A stretch of DNA of 62,715 nucleotides from Verrucomicrobiota bacterium (GTDB lineage Bacteria; Verrucomicrobiota; Verrucomicrobiia; Opitutales; UBA2995). Positions within the stretch are counted from its first letter, which is position 1, and the number at the start of each line of letters is the position of its first letter. A program made the translations under genes and the position numbers. Shown in pieces: positions 1 to 31,033 of the stretch. The DNA is taken from NCBI GenBank assembly GCA_027622555.1, contig JAQBYJ010000021.1:1-62715 (forward strand), given 5' to 3'. The notes under the pieces were generated by a model. That model did not search any database, had not been told where the DNA came from, and worked only from the letters and a program-made list of their open reading frames with translations.

Positions 1-15
1 ACCGGTAGGCCTCGA

Positions 16-66
16 TGGGTGCAGGGCTCGGATTTGAACCAAGGACCTTCAGGTTATGAGCCCGCA
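16..66 (-). other. 3' half of initiator tRNA (fMet, CAT), probable integration attachment site
   Basis: Read on the minus strand this stretch gives an anticodon loop CTCATAA preceded by GGG and followed by CCT, a T-arm with loop TTCAAAT closed by CTTGG/CCGAG, and a 3' acceptor strand CCCTGCA followed by C and CCA. These match the 3' half of a bacterial initiator tRNA. Sequence to the right (toward position 100) does not form a D-arm or a 5' acceptor strand, so this is not an intact gene. A tyrosine integrase gene begins about 100 bases away, as expected when an element has inserted in a tRNA gene and left the displaced 3' half at one edge. An intact copy that should mark the other edge is not visible in the window. 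Confidence 0.7.
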
Positions 67-161
67 GGCCACCCTTTAAATAAAAGGAAATAAGTTTTTT
101 CGTGCAACACTTCGTGCAATAGATGCTTGATTATGCCCTTAAAATGCACTCAAATGCATGA

Positions 162-1454
162 ATGAGCAACGGACAGAAGAGAACGAGAACAACACCCAAG
201 AAAACGGCGGCAATCTCGCTAACCATTCGGGAACACCACGAAATCAAGAACGGGCGCGGCTATGCGTCCTATTTGGTTCAGGGGTGGAAGGAGAACGGGA
301 AATGGCAGCGGAAAAAATTCAAGGAGCGGAAAGACGCGGAAAGGTTTGTCGCTCTCAAACATGTCGAACTGGAGAACCAGGGGCGGGCTCAAAGAATGCT
401 TTTGTCCCCTCTCACCGAAGAGCAGCATCTTCAAGCTATTGAGGCTTTCGATAAACTGGGAGAAACTTACAGCTTAGCCCAAGCGGTTGAGTATTTTCTG
501 GAAAACCACCGTGCCCCGGAATTTACAATCCGTTTCTCTGATGCCGTTGTCTCCTACCTTGGAGAGCGCGAGAGGGACGGGCTTAGGGATAGATCCATGG
601 TTCAATCCAAGAGCGTTTTACGCCAATTCACCACTTTTGCGAATGACTGCCTCGTTCATCAGGTAACCCCTCAGTTGGTTGAAAGCTTCCTTCGCGGTCT
701 AAGGGCTAAGGATGGAGTTTCACCGGCAAAGCGGAAAACCTGGAATAACTATCGAAACAGCCTGAACCATTTTTTCGCATGGGCGGGGGAATCAGACCTC
801 TCGACCCAAAGACCGTGGATTTTCAACAATCCGGCAAGCCAGGTTCGCATTTATTCGGCCAAGCAGGTTGACGAACAGCGGGACGAAATATCCACAACAA
901 GCCCTGAAGACGTTCAAAACCTGTTTTCGGCTTTAATGCGGTGGCGTGGTGGCGTTCTGGTCAAGTGCTTTGCTTTGGCCTATTTTGCTGGAATTCGCCC
1001 GGATGGGGAAATGAAACGGCTAGCCGCCCGGAGCAGTGAATTGATCAACCTCAAGACAGGGGTAATCAAAATCCCGGCCAACGTTTCCAAAACCAAGGAA
1101 TCGCGGCAGGTGAACATTTCACCGAACCTCAGAAAGTGGCTCGTTGCCTTTGATGCCGCCCCGGTGATTCCGACCAACTTTGACCGCTTGATGAAGCAAG
1201 CACGGGCGCACTATGGCCTTCAGCACGATGAGACCCGCCATAGCTTCATTTCTTACCATGTTGGCTTATTCAGGTCAGTTGGGGACGTTGCCTTACAGGC
1301 CGGCAATTCGGAGAGCATAGTCAAAAAGCATTACCTCAATCTCCACCCCAAGGAAGAGGCCGAACACTTCTTTTCGATTGTGCCCGACATGGAGAACGCC
1401 AAAGCGGTAAGAAACCACACAGAAGACAAACCGAAACTAAAGGCCGTTGGATGA
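162..1454 (+). CDS. int: Tyrosine recombinase/integrase
   Basis: A 430-residue site-specific recombinase of the phage integrase family, expected to integrate and excise the element between 16 and about 5500. The N-terminal part is basic, followed by a SAM-like core-binding domain (about residues 120-220, with a YRNSLNHFFAWA segment). The catalytic domain shows AGIRPDGE (first Arg, about residue 280), a Lys in the SKTKESRQ strand, DETRHSFISYH (second Arg box, with Asp where the first His of HxxR usually lies) and KHYLN containing the nucleophile Tyr near residue 375. The gene sits directly beside the tRNA-fMet fragment and overlaps the next gene by four bases (ATGA). The family assignment is secure; the specific attachment site is inferred from position. 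Confidence 0.93.
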   Translation: MSNGQKRTRTTPKKTAAISLTIREHHEIKNGRGYASYLVQGWKENGKWQRKKFKERKDAERFVALKHVELENQGRAQRMLLSPLTEEQHLQAIEAFDKLGETYSLAQAVEYFLENHRAPEFTIRFSDAVVSYLGERERDGLRDRSMVQSKSVLRQFTTFANDCLVHQVTPQLVESFLRGLRAKDGVSPAKRKTWNNYRNSLNHFFAWAGESDLSTQRPWIFNNPASQVRIYSAKQVDEQRDEISTTSPEDVQNLFSALMRWRGGVLVKCFALAYFAGIRPDGEMKRLAARSSELINLKTGVIKIPANVSKTKESRQVNISPNLRKWLVAFDAAPVIPTNFDRLMKQARAHYGLQHDETRHSFISYHVGLFRSVGDVALQAGNSESIVKKHYLNLHPKEEAEHFFSIVPDMENAKAVRNHTEDKPKLKAVG

Positions 1455-2005
1455 AAAAAGAGGACCAGATGAAAAGAGCAGCGTTTTACACCAAAATAAT
1501 GTCAATAGTTCATACAAAGGACGAACAAGAAGCATTGGATAACATAAGGCAATTTGTATCCAACCAGAAGGATTTAAAGCAACTCGCGTTAGAAGGTTTG
1601 GAAATGGCCTGGAATAAAGATCCCAAAATCAATTGGACTCGCTCACATGAGATTGCCCTAAATCTTTTCCCGCTAATTGAGGCAGGTAGGAATGCAGAAG
1701 ATTTTAAACCATTGGAATGGCTTCGCTTGGGTCTTCTTTTAGGCCTCACCTTAGGGAATAGCCATGGAGTTACCGATGGAAGCAAAATAGCTTACAGGTA
1801 CTGGTTACGCACTATTCAAGAAACAGGGAAAGAGCCAACTGCCGGACAAATGGTTAGTCATTTAAAAGACAATGGCATTCCTTACAACGGCAGCTTCCCG
1901 CAAACTTACTCTCGGTGGAAGAAAGCGTGGAAAAAAGCACCACTATCGCCGGATGAGGTGGAATCCAAGTTGAGTCGTATATCGGTAGATTTAACATTGG
2001 ACTAA
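1451..2005 (+). CDS. Hypothetical protein of the integrated element
   Basis: A 184-residue soluble protein that I do not recognise. It overlaps the integrase stop codon by four bases, so the two are probably co-translated. No signal peptide or membrane segment is visible. The second half has a compact Lys/Trp-rich segment (YSRWKKAWKKA, near residue 155) that could form a helical DNA-binding or protein-binding module, but this is only an impression. An alternative start is the internal Met at residue 7. Its place between integrase and the HTH gene suggests a regulator or accessory protein of the element. Confidence 0.6.
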   Translation: MKKEDQMKRAAFYTKIMSIVHTKDEQEALDNIRQFVSNQKDLKQLALEGLEMAWNKDPKINWTRSHEIALNLFPLIEAGRNAEDFKPLEWLRLGLLLGLTLGNSHGVTDGSKIAYRYWLRTIQETGKEPTAGQMVSHLKDNGIPYNGSFPQTYSRWKKAWKKAPLSPDEVESKLSRISVDLTLD

Positions 2006-2057
2006 TGTTAATCTGTTAGGCTGGCCTCAGCATAATTGCTTCCTCTTGTGTGAGTTC

Positions 2058-2279
2058 ATGCAAATTGGTACTCTAAACAAGCAACTCGTGGGAATCCGTT
2101 CCTGCTTAGAAATAGTATTCCCTGATCCAGATAGCCGCCCTTCGTTTCGGACGTTCAACGAATGGAAGGCGCGTGGTTATCTCCCCTACCATCGTGTAGG
2201 ACGAAGAATTTTCATGGATCCGGAACAAGTCCGAGCGGCACTTGATAAACAATTCCAAATACAACCGTCAAAAAACTAA
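2058..2279 (+). CDS. AlpA/excisionase-like helix-turn-helix protein
   Basis: A small protein of about 73 residues with the layout of MerR/AlpA/Xis-like DNA-binding domains: a helix with SFRTFNEWKARG, then YHRVGRRIFMDPEQV (the short wing that normally reads the minor groove) and a final helix. This fold is used by phage and satellite excisionases and by AlpA activators. I chose the ATG at 2058; an upstream in-frame start at 2046 would add four residues. It lies between the integrase pair and the replication gene, where Xis/AlpA genes are commonly found in Gram-negative satellites. Whether it acts in excision or as an activator cannot be decided from sequence. Confidence 0.65.
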   Translation: MQIGTLNKQLVGIRSCLEIVFPDPDSRPSFRTFNEWKARGYLPYHRVGRRIFMDPEQVRAALDKQFQIQPSKN

Positions 2280-2340
2280 CCGCCCGGAGCTTTTCAGCAC
2301 ACGGGCGGCATAAAGTATTCTGATGGTATAGGAAACTTTA

Positions 2341-2754
2341 GTGGTCAGTGTTAGAAGAGCAAGGGCTTTCAGAATTATGAAAGCAACGGATTATCACTTG
2401 TGGAAAGCAATTCCAGCTTCTCCAACGAATTTATTTCACAGATACCTAACAGGGAAAACAGCACTTGAGGAAATAAAGAAAGCTCTTCCAGATTGGTTAC
2501 GAGATTTCGACCGAGATAGAGCAGAAGAAGAAGGTCCAGATTATTTTACGATGGCGCGAGTCAGCTCGTATATTGACCATGAAACTAATCCTATCGTTTC
2601 CTTTATTACCCATTACGAAGGTTTCTTCACTTTAGACCAGATCAAACACAACGGAAAACTTGCAGGCTTTCGTGAGGCAATCGCTTATGCCAATAACCTG
2701 ATGGAAGTATGCCGGAAAGCGCACGGCTTCAAGAGGGGAGGGGTAACGGAATGA
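2341..2754 (+). CDS. Hypothetical protein of the integrated element
   Basis: A soluble protein of up to 137 residues that I do not recognise. The GTG at 2341 has an AGGA about eight bases upstream; an ATG at 2377 would give 125 residues beginning MKATDYHLW and is equally plausible. The protein is charged, with an acidic stretch (DRDRAEEEGPDYF) in the middle and no signal peptide or membrane helix. Its stop codon overlaps the ATG of the primase-helicase gene (ATGA at 2751-2754), suggesting translational coupling and a role in replication or its control. Confidence 0.55.
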   Translation: MVSVRRARAFRIMKATDYHLWKAIPASPTNLFHRYLTGKTALEEIKKALPDWLRDFDRDRAEEEGPDYFTMARVSSYIDHETNPIVSFITHYEGFFTLDQIKHNGKLAGFREAIAYANNLMEVCRKAHGFKRGGVTE

Positions 2755-4808
2755 CACTGCCGTTTGATCACGTGCCACCCGAATGGGTGGAAACCCTTTC
2801 ACCAGCTCTTCAAGCCGGAATAAAAAAACTTCTGCCTTGGGTTAAGCAGAAGCTATTCACCCTTGGCGATGATGGGTTCAATAACCATTTGATGGGGTGC
2901 GCTAGAGCACTTGGGCAACACTTCAACCAGGAAGAGCTGAGAGAAATATTAACGGCATGTGGAGATGCATACACTCGCCCGGTTGAAACCAGGGAAATTG
3001 AAAGAGTAATTGCCAAGGCTTATGATGATAGCCCGCCGGGTAACCTGAAGAAGTGGCCTAAATTTGACCCTGAGTTGGTTAAAGACATTTGCGAAAAGTC
3101 CGAAGTAAAAAGCGTGATTGAGCTAATGGAAAAATTTCCATCTGAAAAGGCAGACATCAAAGAAATTTTGAAAGGGTTATTCCCCCATGATCCACTCGTT
3201 TGTTTTGACGAAAGCCCTCATAAGTGCAGCACAAAGAAGCTATCGGAGCACTTAAAAAACGACCCTACGAAATTCCAGTTCATTGTACCAAACCCAATGA
3301 GTAAACCAACAGGGTTGACCCAAGAGGGAGAGGAATCGGTGCGATGTCTCGATAACACAGGACCCCGTAAATACCTTGTGATCGAATCTGACAAGATACC
3401 AATGGATGACCAGGCGGCGGTATTGAATTACTTGGCAGAGTTTGCACCTCTAGCCATGGTCATTAGATCAGGCGGGAAAAGCCTCCATGGTTGGTTTGAT
3501 TGCGAAGGACAAAGCGAGGGGGATGTATACCAATTAATGCGCCGTGGGGTGATGCTTGGATCTGATAAACAAATGTTCTCTAAATGCCAGTTGGCTAGAA
3601 CACCAGGAGCAATCCGTGACAATGGGAAAAGGCAAAGCGTTGTTGTCTATAGACGCTTTGATGCCCATTTCGATAAATGGCGAATTGATGAACTTCCAGA
3701 AATTGAGGACACGCAAAATGAGGAATACTCTGAAATCGAACAGGACGAAAATAGCAGAAAAGATTTCGAGCTTATCCATATTTCTGAAATTGATTTTTCC
3801 ACCAAATCAAATGACCTCATAGAGGGGCTTTTACTCAAGGGAGATATCTCGGTAATTCTAGCCGCCCCGGGTGTGGGAAAGTCATTCTTTACCCTAAACT
3901 TAGCAGCATGTATTGCCATGGGACGAGATTGGCGTGATAGGGAAGTTGAACAGGGAGCTGTAATCTATGCCTGCCTAGAAGGCGTGACAGGATTTAAAAG
4001 AAGGATTCATGCATTTCGAAAGGCGGGGCTTCTAACCAACGATTGCCCTTTCTACTTACTCGAAACGCAGTTGGATCTATTGAACCCCGACCACGGGGAA
4101 AAATTGATCGAGGCTATTGAAGATTTGGTTAAGGCAATCGGTGAGCCCGTAAAGCTGATTGTGGTCGATACCCTTAGCAGAAGCATGCCAGGGGCGAACG
4201 AGAACGCGGTTGAGGATATGACAAAGATGCTCGCAACGGTTCAACGCATACAGACAAAAACAGCCGCCCATGCCGCCCTAGTCCACCATACGGGGAAGGA
4301 TAAGTCCAGGGGAGCCCGTGGGCACTCCTCCCTTCTTGGAGCTATCGGAACAGAGATCACTTTGTCCCAGGATACCGCCAGCAAAATCATTACCGCTACG
4401 GTATCGAAGCAAAAGGATTTCGAGTGCGCGGGTAAATTCCCGTTCAAGCTACAGGTGGTTCAGCTCGGATTTGATGACAAAGGACGGGAAATCACTTCCT
4501 GCTTAGTTCAACATTTGAACGAATCCGAAGCACCACAGAAAAAGAAGGGACGGCCATCAGAGCACGAACCGGAAGAGCTTCTTGAATTGCTGCCCGTGGG
4601 GTCAATTGGCGATTGGCGGACGGCAGCAGAGGAAGAGCTAAATATTAAAAAAAACTCATTCTTCCGTTACAAAAACCTGTTAACCGAAGGAACGCACTTC
4701 GAATTTGAAGATGGAAAGGGGGGAATTCGAAAATGTAAGGGGCTTGGACAGCCCTTTCCCAATGATCCACTAAGTCCCAAAATAGAAGATACCCGCGACA
4801 CCGCATAA
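2751..4808 (+). CDS. Primase-like / RepA-type RecA-fold helicase fusion replication protein
   Basis: A 685-residue replication protein. Residues 1 to about 330 resemble phage and plasmid primase regions: a PriCT-like helical start (PPEWVETLSPALQ), and a segment with YLVIESD and IRSGGKSLHGWF, typical of archaeo-eukaryotic-primase-like proteins. Residues 345-600 are a RepA/AAA_25 hexameric ATPase with Walker A AAPGVGKS at 371-378, Walker B LIVVDT with Asp near 473, and the HHTGKDKSRGARG loop with SSLLGA that marks this helicase family. The C-terminus is a short helical tail. Together these would prime and unwind an autonomous replicon. The start at 2751 follows a purine-rich GGAGGGG and overlaps the preceding stop. 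Its 3' end and downstream flank hold iteron-like repeats. Confidence 0.85.
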   Translation: MTLPFDHVPPEWVETLSPALQAGIKKLLPWVKQKLFTLGDDGFNNHLMGCARALGQHFNQEELREILTACGDAYTRPVETREIERVIAKAYDDSPPGNLKKWPKFDPELVKDICEKSEVKSVIELMEKFPSEKADIKEILKGLFPHDPLVCFDESPHKCSTKKLSEHLKNDPTKFQFIVPNPMSKPTGLTQEGEESVRCLDNTGPRKYLVIESDKIPMDDQAAVLNYLAEFAPLAMVIRSGGKSLHGWFDCEGQSEGDVYQLMRRGVMLGSDKQMFSKCQLARTPGAIRDNGKRQSVVVYRRFDAHFDKWRIDELPEIEDTQNEEYSEIEQDENSRKDFELIHISEIDFSTKSNDLIEGLLLKGDISVILAAPGVGKSFFTLNLAACIAMGRDWRDREVEQGAVIYACLEGVTGFKRRIHAFRKAGLLTNDCPFYLLETQLDLLNPDHGEKLIEAIEDLVKAIGEPVKLIVVDTLSRSMPGANENAVEDMTKMLATVQRIQTKTAAHAALVHHTGKDKSRGARGHSSLLGAIGTEITLSQDTASKIITATVSKQKDFECAGKFPFKLQVVQLGFDDKGREITSCLVQHLNESEAPQKKKGRPSEHEPEELLELLPVGSIGDWRTAAEEELNIKKNSFFRYKNLLTEGTHFEFEDGKGGIRKCKGLGQPFPNDPLSPKIEDTRDTA

Positions 4809-4837
4809 ATAAAGGAAAGTCTCATAAGTCCCAAAAT
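4761..4837. repeat. Iteron-like repeats downstream of the replication gene, candidate origin
   Basis: The 13-base word TAAGTCCCAAAAT occurs twice in direct orientation (4771-4783, inside the 3' end of the replication gene, and 4825-4837), and AATGATCCA occurs at 4761 and again near 4835. A related GTCTCATAAGTC unit recurs at 4819 and near 4873. Repeats next to a primase-helicase gene are typical of replication origins in phage satellites and plasmids. The repeats are directly visible; the origin function is inferred. Confidence 0.5.
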
Positions 4838-4875
4838 GATCCAAAACACATTATGAATCCGCCCGTCTCATGTCT

Positions 4876-4910
4876 CATAAGTCTCACAACCCTTTAGGGT
4901 GAGACTTATG
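4876..4910. promoter_or_regulatory. 12-bp perfect inverted repeat covering the terS start region
   Basis: CATAAGTCTCAC (4876-4887) and GTGAGACTTATG (4899-4910) are exact reverse complements separated by an 11-base loop. The right arm contains the ATG at 4908, and the likely ribosome-binding AGGGTGAG (4896-4903) falls in the loop and right arm. In RNA this would hide the start site of the terminase-like gene; in DNA it could be an operator, a packaging site or part of the origin. It lacks a T-tract, so a terminator is unlikely. Confidence 0.55.
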
Positions 4911-5459
4911 GGACGAAATTTTGAACCCGAAAGAAAAAAAACAATGCCACCACCAAAGAAAATTAAGTCAGGACTTAAAAAGCTCCCCTCCCCCACGGGC
5001 AGCAAAAAGCTTTCCGCGATAAAACTCAGGTGCCTTGAGTTTATCGAGCATTACCTTCAAACCTTCAACGCAACCGAAGCCGCCAGGCAGATGGGCTACA
5101 AGGGTAATTCTGCTTCATCCCAAGGCTATGAGTTTTTCCACCATCCCTTCACCAAGGCAGAGTTTTCAAAACGCTATGAACAGCTTTCACTCGAAAACAA
5201 GGATGCACATAAAGAAATCATTTCGATGATTTGGCGCGAGGCGAATTTCTTCGGAGAGGGGTCCACACATTCAGCAAGGGTAAGAGCACAATCCCTGCTT
5301 TCCAAAATATTTGGGTTGGAGACCATTCAAATAAAGGCAGACGTGGAACACAGGTCGGGTGTTATGCTTGTTCCTGTCGATAACCGCCCCATGGATGAAA
5401 TTGAAAAAGATTTGATTGCCCGTCAAAGGGAGTTGAAACGCCTTTCACAGGAAGATTGA
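4908..5459 (+). CDS. Phage terminase small subunit-like protein
   Basis: A 183-residue protein with the architecture of Terminase_2-type small subunits. A basic Pro/Lys-rich head precedes the DNA-binding segment FIEHYLQTFNATEAARQMGY (about residues 44-63), whose FxxxYL..NAT.AA...GY pattern is the family signature, followed by SSQGYEFF. Later come an ARVRAQSLLSKIFGL helix and a GVMLVPV strand before a charged helical tail. TerS recognises packaging sites and recruits the large terminase, yet no large terminase, portal or capsid gene is near. Possible starts are GTG 4899, ATG 4908 and ATG 4944; 4908 is preferred because AGGGTGAG precedes it. A lone TerS beside int, an AlpA-like gene and primase is a phage-satellite hallmark. 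Confidence 0.75.
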   Translation: MGRNFEPERKKTMPPPKKIKSGLKKLPSPTGSKKLSAIKLRCLEFIEHYLQTFNATEAARQMGYKGNSASSQGYEFFHHPFTKAEFSKRYEQLSLENKDAHKEIISMIWREANFFGEGSTHSARVRAQSLLSKIFGLETIQIKADVEHRSGVMLVPVDNRPMDEIEKDLIARQRELKRLSQED

Positions 5460-5579
5460 AGGATTGAGCTCACCCAGGAGTATGTAAAATGCAGCTTGAT
5501 GGAATTCTCCCGGAAGTTTACCCTGTTCCAAATTAAAGACGTTGGAAATTAGCCAACCTAACCCTTACATTTTTCATCA

Positions 5580-5714
5580 ATGAAAAAAATAATCCTCCTT
5601 CTTGCCGCTGTATTTTTCTCACAAGGAAATGCCCAAGTGGTTGTAAACGGAACTGACCTAAACGAAGAGGTCGACATATTTGAACAACCCCCACCTCTGC
5701 GGCTGCGCCGCTAA
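5580..5714 (+). pseudogene. Truncated secreted-protein fragment (44 codons)
   Basis: A 44-codon reading frame begins with a clear signal peptide (MKKIILLLAAVFFSQGNAQ), continues with about 16 polar residues (VVVNGTDLNEEVDIFE) and then ends abruptly in a Pro/Leu/Arg run unlike a natural domain. It looks like the 5' end of a secreted-protein gene cut off by a rearrangement near 5690-5715. It lies just beyond the terminase-like gene and may mark the right limit of the integrated element. The 120 bases between 5460 and 5579 show no gene. Confidence 0.45.
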
Positions 5715-5784
5715 AAAGCAAATTCCTATCAATGGGCGGGGGAGACCCAGATCGCGGGGAGGTAGCGGGAGAAGGCGACGTGGA

Positions 5785-5896
5785 TCACTCACGCCTACGC
5801 GTGCGCCTGGCTAAGAGTAGCAAGCCCAGCGCGCCGATAAACCACAAAAAAACCGATCCGATATCGAGCCGGTTGAATTGAAGGTTTAGGAGGCGA
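5785..5896 (-). pseudogene. Remnant resembling the C-terminus of a GlsB/YeaQ/YmgE-type membrane protein
   Basis: On the minus strand, directly after the LpoB stop, an open stretch without a start codon reads FNRLDIGSVFLWFIGALGLL followed by an Arg-rich end and a TGA at 5785-5787. The pattern of a Gly/Ser-led hydrophobic helix with IGA and a basic tail is that of the last segment of GlsB/YeaQ (transglycosylase-associated) proteins. The first two membrane helices are missing. Recognition is by pattern only. Confidence 0.35.
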
Positions 5897-5900
5897 CGAA

Positions 5901-6500
5901 TCAGAACCCTACCGACGGGCGTTTGCCCTGTTTGGTGATTAGCACCTCATCTTCCCACATAGCCAGACCATCTTTCACTGTTGTGAGAGAGAGTTGGAAC
6001 GTATATGTTACTTGTCGTGTGTTGCCGGAGCGGGCTCGGTCTTCGAGGAGTTTTCCAGAAAGCGTGTAGTAGGGAAGCGTCGTCGTCTGCTTCTTACCGG
6101 CAAGCATCGCGGCCATCTCACCGGCGTCTTTCGCTAAGGGATCTTCGGCGGCACCGCCAAGGCCCATAGTTGTCGTTGTGACTACTTTGCCCGACTGGTT
6201 GAGGGCGATACGAATTTTCTTCGTCAACGAATCGGTGTCGATCTGGGTCTGCGTGTTATTGACGATGCGCGAGATCGCCATGATCGAGGGCTGGGTCGGC
6301 GACCGCTCGAGGACGCCACTAGCGAGAAGCGAGGCGACCATCGTTTCAGCCGCTTGGTTCCAGTCTTGGATATTGATCTGGTCGAGGGACACCACAGTTT
6401 CTTTACCTTTGGAGTCGACGTATTTCGTCGCGCAACCGGAGACGAGGAACAGGGCTGGCGCGAGGGCCGCCGTGGCGATAAGGGAGCGGATATTTTTCAT
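5901..6500 (-). CDS. lpoB: Penicillin-binding protein activator LpoB-like lipoprotein
   Basis: A 199-residue lipoprotein with lipobox LVSGC (Cys near residue 23). The body matches the LpoB/YcfM family: INIQDWNQAAETMVASLL corresponds to the conserved INxxDLNxAAxxMVxSLL, followed by SRIVNNTQTQIDTDSLTKKIRIALNQSG and YYTLSGKLLE. In enterobacteria LpoB is an outer-membrane lipoprotein that activates PBP1b peptidoglycan synthase; a similar envelope role is inferred here. It is followed upstream on the same strand by a YcfL-like lipoprotein gene, the same neighbour as in E. coli. A Ser/Gly-rich insertion (about residues 115-145) differs from the E. coli protein. Confidence 0.85.
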   Translation of the reverse strand: MKNIRSLIATAALAPALFLVSGCATKYVDSKGKETVVSLDQINIQDWNQAAETMVASLLASGVLERSPTQPSIMAISRIVNNTQTQIDTDSLTKKIRIALNQSGKVVTTTTMGLGGAAEDPLAKDAGEMAAMLAGKKQTTTLPYYTLSGKLLEDRARSGNTRQVTYTFQLSLTTVKDGLAMWEDEVLITKQGKRPSVGF

Positions 6501-6560
6501 AGAGTTTAAAGCGGAAACGGAAGGAAGTGAGCGGTGAGTGGAGGGAGCAATCGGGGCCGT

Positions 6561-6977
6561 TTAGTTGGCCTCGGCGAGTTTCAATTTAAAGTCGACGGCC
6601 TTGGGCGAGATCGCGACCGCGGACACCATCTGTGTCTCACCACCGGCGAAGGACAACGATTGCCAAGACTGGACGACCGAGTTTGTCGCCATGCCATCTT
6701 GGTCGATCCACTCAAACTTATAGCTGACACGCCGGGTGTTATTCTTGACGTTTTCCAGTGTGACTTGGACTTTCTTTAGGTTGCCCGAGACAATCGATTC
6801 GTTGACCGAGACGATCCTGATCGGGCCGCCGAGGGAGGCATCAGTGATGATGCGTTTATCGGCGATCATGTCAGGCTTAGCCTGAGGGTTGGCGCGCTCG
6901 ACGGTATTGACGTTAGTCGCGCAGCCCAAGGCAAGCAAGAGGCAGCTCATCACGGCGAGGAGAGGAATAATTTTCAT
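6561..6977 (-). CDS. ycfL: YcfL-like (DUF1425) lipoprotein
   Basis: A 138-residue lipoprotein with lipobox LALGC (Cys near residue 19). The C-terminal part (VQVTLENVKNNTRRVSYKFE, then WIDQDGMAT and a Trp-Gln-Ser segment) forms the immunoglobulin-like beta-sandwich typical of YcfL/DUF1425, which is often encoded next to lpoB. Its molecular role is unknown; the conserved linkage suggests it works with LpoB in envelope growth. The gene is 60 bases upstream of lpoB on the same strand and likely in one transcript with it and the COG3014-like remnant. Confidence 0.8.
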   Translation of the reverse strand: MKIIPLLAVMSCLLLALGCATNVNTVERANPQAKPDMIADKRIITDASLGGPIRIVSVNESIVSGNLKKVQVTLENVKNNTRRVSYKFEWIDQDGMATNSVVQSWQSLSFAGGETQMVSAVAISPKAVDFKLKLAEAN

Positions 6978-7081
6978 AGTGACGACAGGTGTGACCGAGA
7001 AGAAGAGAAAAGGTTCTCCGTCGCCAAAAGACGACGACGAATTTGGCTTTGATCGATCCCTCGCACGGCAGAATTAGAGCG

Positions 7082-7714
7082 TTATGGTTTGAGCGCAAAT
7101 TGATCGACAAGGATCGGAGCGATGGAGTTGGTGCTGATTACGTAGACCACATTGATGCTACCAGGCACGAGCTTGACCGTCTGCGTCTGGGTGCCAGCGG
7201 CAAGCGTGAGCGACCGATCGGCGGGGGTGTCGAGACGCATGTAGTGGAACTCCTTTGGCAAGCTGCGCCATGTGCGCGTATCGGCGATGTTGATAGCCGC
7301 TTGGCCAGCGGCGGTGATCGCTTTGGCTGCAAGCTGGCCCCACACGCCGAACTGTTCCTTGGCCTCCTTCTGGATCGCGACGTCGACCGTTGCCTTTAGG
7401 GCTGTGGAGATGAGGGTCTTAGTTAGAATTGACGGCCACTCGTTTTTAAAATCGAGGGAAATGACGCTATCCATGCTGCTTAGTATTGAGCTGGTGATGT
7501 TCCGCCCATCAGCAATAACTGTAAGTGAGGGCGTGAAATCCGACTGGTATTTGATCTTAGGGAACGCCGCGCCGACATAGGAGACTTTGTCTGTGACGGC
7601 GTAGGTAGGGAAGAGCCAAAGGGGACACACCTTGGATCTCGACAAAATCAGATTGTCCGGGAGTTTCAATATTCCAGAACTGAAGGATCTGACCTTGGCC
7701 GACAGGGTCAGCGG
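7082..7714 (-). pseudogene. 5'-truncated COG3014-like envelope protein gene
   Basis: The open frame runs from 7714 to 7082 with no convincing start; the first usable codon is a TTG at 7669. What remains (about 200 residues) looks like the C-terminal half of COG3014-like envelope proteins, which co-occur with LpoB and YcfL: a SVISLDFKNEWPSILTKTLI segment, an amphipathic Ala-rich helix (TALKATVDVAIQKEAKEQFG), and a beta-rich end. Homologues are usually more than 400 residues with a lipobox; here the N-terminal half and signal are missing. The cut lies around 7715, and 7715-7936 contains no gene. The remnant may still be transcribed but is unlikely to be exported. Confidence 0.6.
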
Positions 7715-7936
7715 TCAATTATCAATTTATTTGGCTCACAATCTAATTACGACTGCGGGAAGAAATCAGGAATTCGATGGATTTGTTGACCATTGATCTG
7801 GTTGGTATTCTCGGCGTCTGGAATCTGGATTTCCACACACGTTGGCTGGCGGTGAAAAAGAAACACGAAATTAATTTACCAGCAAAGAACCATAGAGGGG
7901 GTGACTAAACCGGAAAAACCTGCTCTGCTTTAGCCG

Positions 7937-8335
7937 ATGATCCAGGAAGACGACCCTTGCCCTATTCTTCAACCCTACGAGGATGAATACTCGGCGCGAC
8001 TTGCCAGAATAAATAAGCTGGCCGATTTCCTTGATTCAAAATTTGTCATTCCCGGAACCAGCATACGGTTTGGATGGGACGGGATCATCGGCTTGATTCC
8101 CGTTGTCGGAGATACCCTGACTCTGTTACCCCAACTTTATTTGCTCTATGAAGCCTATAGAACCAAGGTCGGTGCCTGGACTATTCTCAAGATGCTGGCC
8201 AACGTCGGAATCGACTGGCTGATCGGCGCGATCCCAGTGGTGGGGGACATATTTGACGTCGCTTTCAGAAGCAACCTGTACAATGTACGCCTCGTCGCCC
8301 AACGCATCCGCGAAAAACAGGCGTTGGATATATGA
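7937..8335 (+). CDS. DUF4112 family membrane protein
   Basis: A 132-residue protein with the DUF4112 signature: FVIPGTSIRFGWDGIIGLIP, then VVGDTLTLLP, a central hydrophobic segment and a repeat of the motif (WLIGAIPVVGDIFDVAFRSN). The two IPVVGD motifs flank hairpin-like membrane segments. Members are widespread small membrane proteins of unknown function. It stands alone, with 150 bases to the next gene on the same strand. Confidence 0.85.
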   Translation: MIQEDDPCPILQPYEDEYSARLARINKLADFLDSKFVIPGTSIRFGWDGIIGLIPVVGDTLTLLPQLYLLYEAYRTKVGAWTILKMLANVGIDWLIGAIPVVGDIFDVAFRSNLYNVRLVAQRIREKQALDI

Positions 8336-8490
8336 CTAGCGGGTCGAAGCTCTTCTCACAGAAGATCCAGTCTGTTGCCTGTTTAGGTTTACCAGGCGAG
8401 GCAATCTCCGTTTGAAATTTGAGCGGCTTGAAAGAGAACCTTGGCTTTCATCCGCTTTCGCCTAGGATGGGATAGAACGTTAAGAAATTT

Positions 8491-9228
8491 ATGGAGCAAA
8501 CACCCAATGAAAGTATCGCGTTGCTCATCGACGCAGACAACGCACCCGCCGGGAAAATCGAGTTCATACTCAGCGAGCTGGCCAGCCATGGTAAGGTGAA
8601 CATCCGCCGTGCCTATGGCAATTGGAAGAAACAGGGGTTGTCGGGCTGGGAAAAAGTGCTTCATGACCACGCGATTCAACCGAGTCAGCATTTCGACCTT
8701 ATCAAGGGTAAGAATGCCAGTGACATGGGCCTGGTGATCGAAGCCATGGATATTCTCTATACCAAAGCGGTGGATACGTTTTGCCTGGTTTCTTCGGACT
8801 GCGACTTCACGCCCCTGGTGTTACGATTGCGGACCGACGGAAAACAAGTGATCGGTTTTGGCGGGCAGAAAACACCCGAACCCTTTATCAATGGCTGCAC
8901 GAAATTTCTCTATCTGGAGGAGGTCGAAAAGAGCCCGAGCACTCAGAATAAAAAGAAGGCCTCCGCCAAACCGTTTAAAGCCAACACCAAGCTGATGCAC
9001 ACCCTGCGCAATGCGGTACAGGCCACGGGAGATGAAGATGGCTGGGCTCCACTGGGTCCGGTTGGGGCGCATATCTCAAACCAGGGACCTTTCGACCACC
9101 GCACTTATGGCTTTTCCAAGCTCAGCGATTTATTCGCAGCCATCGATCAGTTTGAAGTGGAGAAACTCCAGAACGGAAACCGACTCACCGTCCGCGTCCG
9201 TTACAAGGAGTCCGCCAAAGCGGATTAA
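8491..9228 (+). CDS. NYN-domain ribonuclease-like protein with OST-HTH/LOTUS domain
   Basis: A 245-residue protein of the LabA/DUF88 group. Residues 8-140 form a NYN (PIN-like) domain: ALLIDADNAP carries the first acidic pair, KGKNASDMGLVIEAMD the second, and LVSSDCDFTPLV the third, together the metal-binding set of a putative RNase. A Lys-rich linker (about residues 150-165) leads to a C-terminal OST-HTH/LOTUS domain (LRNAVQATGDEDGWAPLGPVG and YGFSKLSDLFAAI), a module thought to bind RNA or proteins. This pairing is common in bacteria and suggests RNA processing or decay. The substrate is unknown. Confidence 0.88.
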   Translation: MEQTPNESIALLIDADNAPAGKIEFILSELASHGKVNIRRAYGNWKKQGLSGWEKVLHDHAIQPSQHFDLIKGKNASDMGLVIEAMDILYTKAVDTFCLVSSDCDFTPLVLRLRTDGKQVIGFGGQKTPEPFINGCTKFLYLEEVEKSPSTQNKKKASAKPFKANTKLMHTLRNAVQATGDEDGWAPLGPVGAHISNQGPFDHRTYGFSKLSDLFAAIDQFEVEKLQNGNRLTVRVRYKESAKAD

Positions 9229-9377
9229 CCCCTGGACAGCTGATCCTGAAGGGCGGCAAAAAGGTGGGAGGCGAAAAGGTGCCGGACCTGGCGGTTTTAT
9301 ATTTTTCGATTCAGGATTTACCAAGGCACAATATGGATCCTTGTGCATGCTTGATCTGGTGAAAATCATTCCTGGGT

Positions 9378-9975: not shown

Positions 9976-10062
9976 TGGTGCCCAGGGCGGGACTTGAACC
10001 CGCACGCCCTCACAGGCAATGGATTTTAAGTCCACAGCGTCTACCGATTTCGCCACCTGGGC
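9976..10062 (-). tRNA. tRNA-Leu (anticodon TAA)
   Basis: An 87-base class II tRNA on the minus strand. The acceptor stem is GCCCAGG/CCTGGGC followed by A and an encoded CCA. The D-arm (GGCGAAATCGGTAGACGC) carries the tRNA-Leu signature, the anticodon loop CTTAAAA gives TAA, the long variable arm (TTGCCTGTGAGGGC) is present and the T-loop is TTCAAGT. All stems pair. It reads UUA leucine codons. Confidence 0.97.
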
Positions 10063-30058: not shown

Positions 30059-31033
30059 GTGAACAGGATCGATTATAGTCCCCTCTATCAACAACTAGAA
30101 GGCTCACCGTTTGCTTCATGGATTTCCGATTTGAGACGGTTTGTGAATTCTAATATCGAGGATTCAAATGATGGTCATTTGCCGACATGGTTAGCGGCGT
30201 TGAACGCCTTGCCGAAGTTCGATTGCGAACGATCAGATATTTGCGAAGGGGTTCGCTTCGACGGCGATTGTAATGTTCCTGCTGCTGAGTCCGCCTTGCG
30301 GCAATTCCACCCCTGGCGAAAAGGCCCTTTGAAACTTGGTGAAGTGGAGATCGATACCGAATGGCGGTCCGATTGGAAGTGGGACCGTTTGAAAGGCCAT
30401 ATTGAACCATTGGAAGGTCGGACGGTTCTCGATATCGGGTGCGGAAATGGCTACTACCTTTGGCGGATGTTGGGTGCAGGCGCAAAACTCGCCGTGGGGA
30501 TAGATCCCTATCTACTTTTTGTGATGCAGTTCTGGGCGACAAAACAGTTTGCTCCCCAGAAATTGCCTGCCTGGGTTCTTCCTATGGGTTGGGAGGATCT
30601 TCCGCCTGAGTTACCGTTTTTCGATACTGTCTTTTCGATGGGTGTACTTTATCATCGTCGGAATCCAGACCAATTCCTACAGCAGTTAAAAAACTATGTG
30701 CGACCTGGCGGCGAACTTGTGTTGGAGACCTTAGTGATCGAAGGAAATGAAGGGGAGGTACTTGTTCCCCAAGGTCGTTATGCTAAAATGCGCAACGTGT
30801 GGTATATTCCCTCTGTCTCAACTTTAGAAGCTGCATTAAAGGACGCCGGTTGGTTGAACGTTCGTTGTATCGACGTGACTCCTACGAAACCCGAAGAACA
30901 ACGAACCACTGACTGGATGACCTTCGAATCATTAAAGGACTTTTTGGATCCAAAGGATCCGACTCGGACAGTCGAAGGTTACCCTGCGCCTATACGTGCA
31001 GTCATTGTTGCGAATAAAGAACCCAGGAGCTAG
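30059..31033 (+). CDS. cmoB: tRNA U34 carboxymethyltransferase
   Basis: A 324-residue CmoB, transferring the carboxymethyl group of carboxy-SAM to 5-hydroxyuridine 34. The family marks are FHPWRKGPLKLGEVEIDTEWRSDWKWDR (split over residues about 80-110), VLDIGCGNGYYLWRMLGAGA, FDTVFSMGVLYHRRNPDQFL and VPQGRYAKMRNVWYIPS. It begins at GTG 30059; no closer ATG start exists. Together with trhP-like and cmoA it completes the cmo5U34 pathway within 10 kb. Confidence 0.95.
   Translation: MNRIDYSPLYQQLEGSPFASWISDLRRFVNSNIEDSNDGHLPTWLAALNALPKFDCERSDICEGVRFDGDCNVPAAESALRQFHPWRKGPLKLGEVEIDTEWRSDWKWDRLKGHIEPLEGRTVLDIGCGNGYYLWRMLGAGAKLAVGIDPYLLFVMQFWATKQFAPQKLPAWVLPMGWEDLPPELPFFDTVFSMGVLYHRRNPDQFLQQLKNYVRPGGELVLETLVIEGNEGEVLVPQGRYAKMRNVWYIPSVSTLEAALKDAGWLNVRCIDVTPTKPEEQRTTDWMTFESLKDFLDPKDPTRTVEGYPAPIRAVIVANKEPRS

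Follow-up and report, generated by a model that had tools for sequence, protein, structure and literature searches.

What is the block of genes that opens this Verrucomicrobiota contig, and could it belong to a parasite of phages? The window, by which we mean the whole stretch of 62,715 bp that was analysed, is an entire contig (C21) of a 6.02-Mb assembly in 238 contigs. Base 1 of the window is the contig end, and the first 5.46 kb contain six genes: an integrase, a gene that we call u184, a small HTH gene, a second gene called u137, a primase-helicase and a terminase small subunit (TerS). The first-pass annotation described these genes as co-oriented and joined throughout by ATGA overlaps. 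Co-orientation was confirmed for all six (forward strand). ATGA overlaps were found only between the integrase gene and u184 (1451-1454) and between u137 and the helicase gene (2751-2754); the three remaining junctions are gaps of 40, 61 and 135 bp. As the annotation had stated, no gene for a large terminase (TerL), portal or capsid was recognised in the block by Pfam and PHROGs profile searches of the proteins tested, some of which had no match of any kind. We consider it fairly probable that this block forms the left, conserved portion of an island resembling a phage satellite.

The block starts with an attL-type core. Read on the reverse strand, positions 1-62 comprise the 3' 47 nt of a tRNA-Met(CAT) gene (16-62) and 15 bp of the terminator downstream of it (1-15). 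These 62 bp are 100% identical to positions 30430-30491 of another contig of the same genome, C1, and there was no further copy in the genome. The C1 copy falls at the only initiator-like tRNA-Met detected in the genome; we use this term for its similarity to known initiator tRNAs. It is flanked by an acyltransferase-like gene on one side and by rpsB-tsf on the other. Because this gene order is kept in other members of the genus, we regard the C1 site as native and empty. The same genome therefore has an empty tRNA-Met site on C1 and an attL-type junction on C21, without a right end.

The tyrosine integrase (162-1454; 430 aa) lies beside the tRNA-Met fragment, as originally noted, and matched phrog_1 (E 5e-20) and, above cut-off, Phage_int_SAM_1. 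The overlapping gene u184 (1451-2005) belongs to no family, and its AlphaFold model is all-helical at low confidence (pLDDT 58). The small HTH gene (2046-2279; start codon uncertain) had been called AlpA-like. The gene itself is kept in ten family loci and is 67% identical over 61 aa to that of a complete relative, L100 (see below). Its identity as an AlpA/Xis-like protein is that of a candidate: matches to HTH_17, phrog_66 and excisionase/AlpA-type models were weak, and none passed a Pfam cut-off, the best HTH_17 value among nine relatives being E = 0.0023. In the variable slot that follows, u137 (2341-2754) had no family match and no detectable similarity to the gene in the equivalent slot of L100. 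PADLOC found nothing among the window genes without a family or the cargo of L100, and Foldseek found nothing at E < 0.001 with the AlphaFold models of u184 and TerS, both of which were poor (pLDDT 58 and 46).

The primase-helicase (2751-4808; 685 aa) matched AAA_25 (E 1e-36), phrog_2597 (DNA primase), phrog_906 and the PDB entry for RepA, 1g8y (E 9.5e-10), bearing out the proposed fusion of a primase-like domain to a RepA helicase. The matches to RepA and AAA_25 lie in the C-terminal half, which contains GVGKS. The N-terminal half contains the motifs IESD and SGGKSLH, which we take, by comparison with motifs of archaeo-eukaryotic primases (AEP), to mark a putative AEP-like domain. Alignment with L100 led us to revise the start codons of the helicase and TerS genes to 2751 and 4944, respectively; the ATGA junction likewise places the helicase start at 2751.

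The assignment of TerS (4944-5459; 171 aa) appears solid from its profile matches. Tested as a longer ORF from 4899, it scored 40 bits against Terminase_2 (PF03592; cut-off 26.1; E 7.8e-10), matched phrog_5334 (1e-14), and matched the PDB TerS profiles 3zqp, 4zc3 and 2cmp with E values of 1.5e-5 (3zqp) to 3e-5. The L100 protein, 48% identical, scored 38.3 bits, likewise above the cut-off. The Terminase_2-type subunit of the first reading therefore stands, and membership of an unrelated HTH family, which would have told against it, was not what the searches returned. Ahead of the TerS gene, at 4765-4914, a repeat search found three 18-nt direct repeats (starting at 4765, 4819 and 4872). It also found an inverted repeat between the helicase and TerS genes, whose 16-nt arms (4872-4887 and 4899-4914) enclose an 11-nt loop. 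L100 has an inverted repeat of the same shape in the same place (arms of 15-16 nt in the two elements, loop of 11 nt). The two differ in sequence, and none of 60 shuffles gave one as good. The repeats are a candidate replication origin or TerS-binding site.

The decisive evidence comes from comparison with relatives. Among 383 other genomes of the class that were searched, one, a Verrucomicrobiales MAG (G250), had a near-full-length, single-frame relative of the primase-helicase. The element concerned, L100 (the loci L089 and L100 are on one contig and belong to the same element), has the same six-gene order as the window: integrase, variable gene, HTH gene, variable gene, primase-helicase and TerS. 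Conservation of gene order in a related genome, one of the checks proposed at the outset, was thus observed. Identity to the window is about 60-61% for the integrase, 67% for the HTH protein, 42% for the primase-helicase and 48% for TerS. L100 spans 9,573 bp between exact 56-bp direct repeats, the right copy of which lies inside an intact tRNA-Met gene. Downstream of TerS it carries a 686-aa gene that matched no family, a gene of 171 aa, and two small genes, one lipoprotein-like and the other XRE-like; the L100 proteins that were tested gave no match to a head, portal or large-terminase family. A satellite-like element is therefore probable and well supported: the six-gene block occurs elsewhere precisely bounded at tRNA-Met (9.6 kb), without a recognisable large terminase, portal or capsid gene.

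The block is one of a wider family of integrative elements within a single class of Verrucomicrobiota, whose integrase mostly targets tRNA-Met(CAT). Relatives found by integrase searches were from Verrucomicrobiota wherever the record was named, and among 388 genomes drawn from the phylum they were confined to that class. A tRNA-Met fragment lies 132-134 bp upstream of the integrase gene in the window and in L100, L150, L152, L151, L148, L149, L102 and L099, and 78 bp upstream in L153; L101 uses tRNA-Glu. Bounding att repeats were seen in L100, L150 (4,945 bp), L153 (6,722 bp) and L101 (8,352 bp) and in the genomes G280 and G304, and the left att alone in the window. The core of the family consists of the integrase, a variable gene, the small HTH gene and primase/helicase genes, to which the window and L100 add TerS; what the small elements have in common is the integrase, the HTH gene and a gene for replication, either a primase/helicase or another. 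We detected TerS in the window and L100 only, and a TerS profile search gave no match in eight other records or genomes. The 4.9-kb relative L150, without TerS, is as precisely bounded as L100.

On either side of the HTH gene, in the slots next to the integrase and the primase, members mostly have unrelated genes, with one homologous pair (L102/L153). The genes at 1451-2005 and 2341-2754 occupy these slots and so are not specific candidates for interference factors, as had been suggested. Cargo of the relatives includes the 686-aa gene, RelE/HigA-type genes and restriction-modification-like genes, and suggests a vehicle for defence genes. The restriction-modification-like genes are on a bounded 20.8-kb island at tRNA-Met in G280. 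In G304 (contig C8; loci L148, L155, L163 and L164), an integrase of the family accompanies an island of 54.8 kb that is flanked by copies of the tRNA-Met core; no HTH or primase homologue was detected in its first 35 kb. Because related integrases also serve these larger islands, the integrase is not specific to satellites. When viral contigs were scanned with the primase-helicase and with TerS, no full relative came up. Relatives with exact borders elsewhere in the Verrucomicrobiota point to a lineage of phage parasites.

Most of the known satellites are from Proteobacteria and Firmicutes. Newer types have been described in Cyanobacteria and Actinobacteria (PMC11389934). We found no description of a phage satellite of Verrucomicrobiota in the open-access literature searched, and the annotation knew of none either. 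It had also equated the gene set with that of PICIs and SaPIs. We found the layout to be closer to that of PICMIs, with TerS added. PICMIs, from Vibrionaceae, are small and consist of int, a gene overlapping it by ATGA (iolg), alpA, single unrelated genes between alpA and prim, and the primase; int, alpA and iolg are required for excision and prim for replication (PMC10803314). The C21 element has the same arrangement, its u184 and u137 slots corresponding in position to iolg and up1 (PMC10803314). Both kinds of element lack capsid and capsid-remodelling genes and hold unrelated genes in their variable slots. PICMIs are defined by int, AlpA (PF05930/PF12728) and a DUF3987/DUF5906 primase, inserted at fis (PMC10803314). 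In contrast, the C21 and L100 elements are inserted at tRNA-Met and carry TerS, which PICMI115 lacks, and the C21 element has an AAA_25/RepA-type primase-helicase fusion and an HTH protein that is not clearly AlpA (HTH_17 below cut-off), placing it outside that definition.

PICIs, including SaPIs, resemble the C21 and L100 elements in having a left-end integrase, a regulator, a replication module and, in some, terS, and resemble L100 in having accessory genes at the right end (PMC6092414). The window has the integrase, the replication module and a TerS above cut-off, with the weakly matching HTH protein as regulator. The family differs from PICIs in having no recognisable capsid-redirection gene, a smaller core and hosts of a different phylum. 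P4-like satellites share with the C21 element int, an AlpA/Vis-like regulator and a primase-helicase, whereas psu, delta and sid were not recognised in the C21 element, which carries TerS (PMC6092414). The best reading is a PICI/PICMI-like satellite family, and we do not claim formal membership of either group. More tentatively, at slightly less than even chances, it would be a distinct lineage of phage satellites in Verrucomicrobiota, in which a TerS of its own and a pac-like repeat are added to the minimal layout seen in PICMIs. The integrase clade on which it is built would be specific for tRNA-Met and would also mobilise defence islands and larger ones.

In SaPIs and some other PICIs, the element's own TerS directs preferential packaging (PMC6092414). 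Given this role and the genetics of PICMI excision and replication, helper-triggered excision, replication and TerS-directed packaging are the most likely life cycle; for the C21 and L100 elements, helper, packaging and transfer are inferred by analogy. A helper phage would trigger the small HTH protein; together with the integrase, and possibly u184, this protein would excise the element. The primase-helicase would replicate it, perhaps from the repeats at 4765-4914, and TerS would present its DNA to the large terminase of the helper for packaging in helper capsids. A search for a co-resident prophage with a matching TerL had been proposed. Searching the genome with phrog_2 turned up no credible TerL, the sole match lying in an apparent RecD helicase, so a helper could be a virulent phage or one that is absent. 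A bounded, TerS-bearing family, if real, would extend phage parasitism to another phylum and would point to helper phages of Verrucomicrobiota not yet known. It also offers a search signature: tRNA-Met integrase, small HTH gene, AEP/RepA primase-helicase, inverted repeat and TerS.

One alternative concerns the C21 copy and not the family, and is compatible with the satellite explanation. The element may belong at the C1 tRNA-Met, the C21 copy being a chimeric contig or dead remnant, with an assembly error or old rearrangement at about 5.5-5.7 kb, where it joins the tRNA-Leu region; we give this close to an even chance, on the lower side. The site on C1 is native and empty, and the core matches it exactly, down to the 15 bp of terminator; there is neither an attR in the window nor another core copy in the genome. 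In addition, a dispersed repeat of 47-53 bp, with many copies and present at several contig ends, lies at 5681-5733. Against this, the 62-bp overlap with C1 is longer than the dispersed repeat, no contig was found to have the expected right end, and all six genes are intact. The junction to non-element sequence (5460-5580) contained no detectable att core or TerL remnant. Host genes start within a few kb: the C21 copy abuts an LpoB operon and other chromosomal genes, with LpoB, DUF1425, DUF4112 and NYN/OST-HTH genes at 5.9-9.2 kb, and synteny with the complete genome G004 shows the contig to be chromosomal from a tRNA-Leu gene rightwards. None of the five other genomes of the genus was found to have the LpoB gene. 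We rejected a single large island at tRNA-Met, given this synteny and the absence of a second core from the whole 62.7 kb. The C21 copy may be truncated (with rearrangement), mixed in the population or chimerically assembled. Because the right border is missing, the minimal size of 5.4 kb originally put forward for this copy is unproven. The case for a TerS-bearing family is independent of it because L100 is complete.

The satellite reading must also be weighed against an integrative, self-replicating island that is no phage parasite, moving by conjugative mobilisation, competence or generalised transduction, with TerS a captured accessory or serving a local role. This is unlikely, in our judgment. 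It would account for the absence of TerS from most relatives, the use of related integrases by the 20.8-kb and 54.8-kb islands, and an HTH protein that is not clearly AlpA. It accords less well with a satellite set of integrase, small HTH, primase/helicase and TerS without structural genes, with the retention of TerS (48% identity) together with the inverted repeat in two different host families, and with the element genes tested, among which no relaxase was seen. We rate as very improbable an origin from a temperate phage whose late genes were lost, the block being its early, left-hand region. In favour of this, Akkermansia phages have distantly related integrases (27%) and a viral-catalogue contig (L088/L115) has the integrase and HTH gene in common. 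Against it, L100 is complete and bounded, and there cargo, not TerL, comes after TerS; no TerL trace was found 3' of the window TerS; and the eight L088/L115 proteins that were tested included no head or packaging family.

Several further loci were recorded. The L088/L115 contig (IMG/VR 3300048589_000786; 19.5 kb; filed as viral) is about 57-58% (integrase) and 51% (HTH) identical to the C21 family; it also encodes DnaC- and DnaB-like proteins and contains one very large ORF. The repeat at window 5681-5733 (AACCCCCACCTCTGCGGCTGCGCCGCTAAAAAGCAAATTCCTATCAA) is present in more than 25 copies, including one tandem pair; it occurs on other contigs of the same genome (C150, C153, C157, C180, C195 and C16) and also in G005 and G006. 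Several copies are at contig ends, and some are read into ORFs (MLFSGAAAEVGVV...). The varied contexts and the tandem pair suggest a dispersed palindromic repeat, and on these grounds we rejected an integron attC. The NYN/OST-HTH gene (8427-9250) has 88% DNA identity to a G006 gene (C250) that has different surroundings, compared with about 70% for the nearby chromosome, which could reflect recent transfer or strong constraint. In G007 (C78, 2047-3408; L046), a related integrase (35%) lies at the 3' end of tRNA-Leu(TAA), the same tRNA as at window 9976-10062, and this tRNA is a second integration hotspot in the genus. On contig C158 of the window's own genome, G000 (5750-9181; L154), a second related integrase (35%) lies just downstream of tRNA-Leu(GAG); after it, as judged by eye, come an ankyrin-like gene and an AbrB/PIN-like toxin-antitoxin pair. 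Finally, G349 (C1; L098) has three primase-helicase matches near 4499505, 4535225 and 4570945, beside phage-like genes and spaced by exactly 35,720 bp, which look like three copies of a prophage in tandem or a duplication made in assembly.
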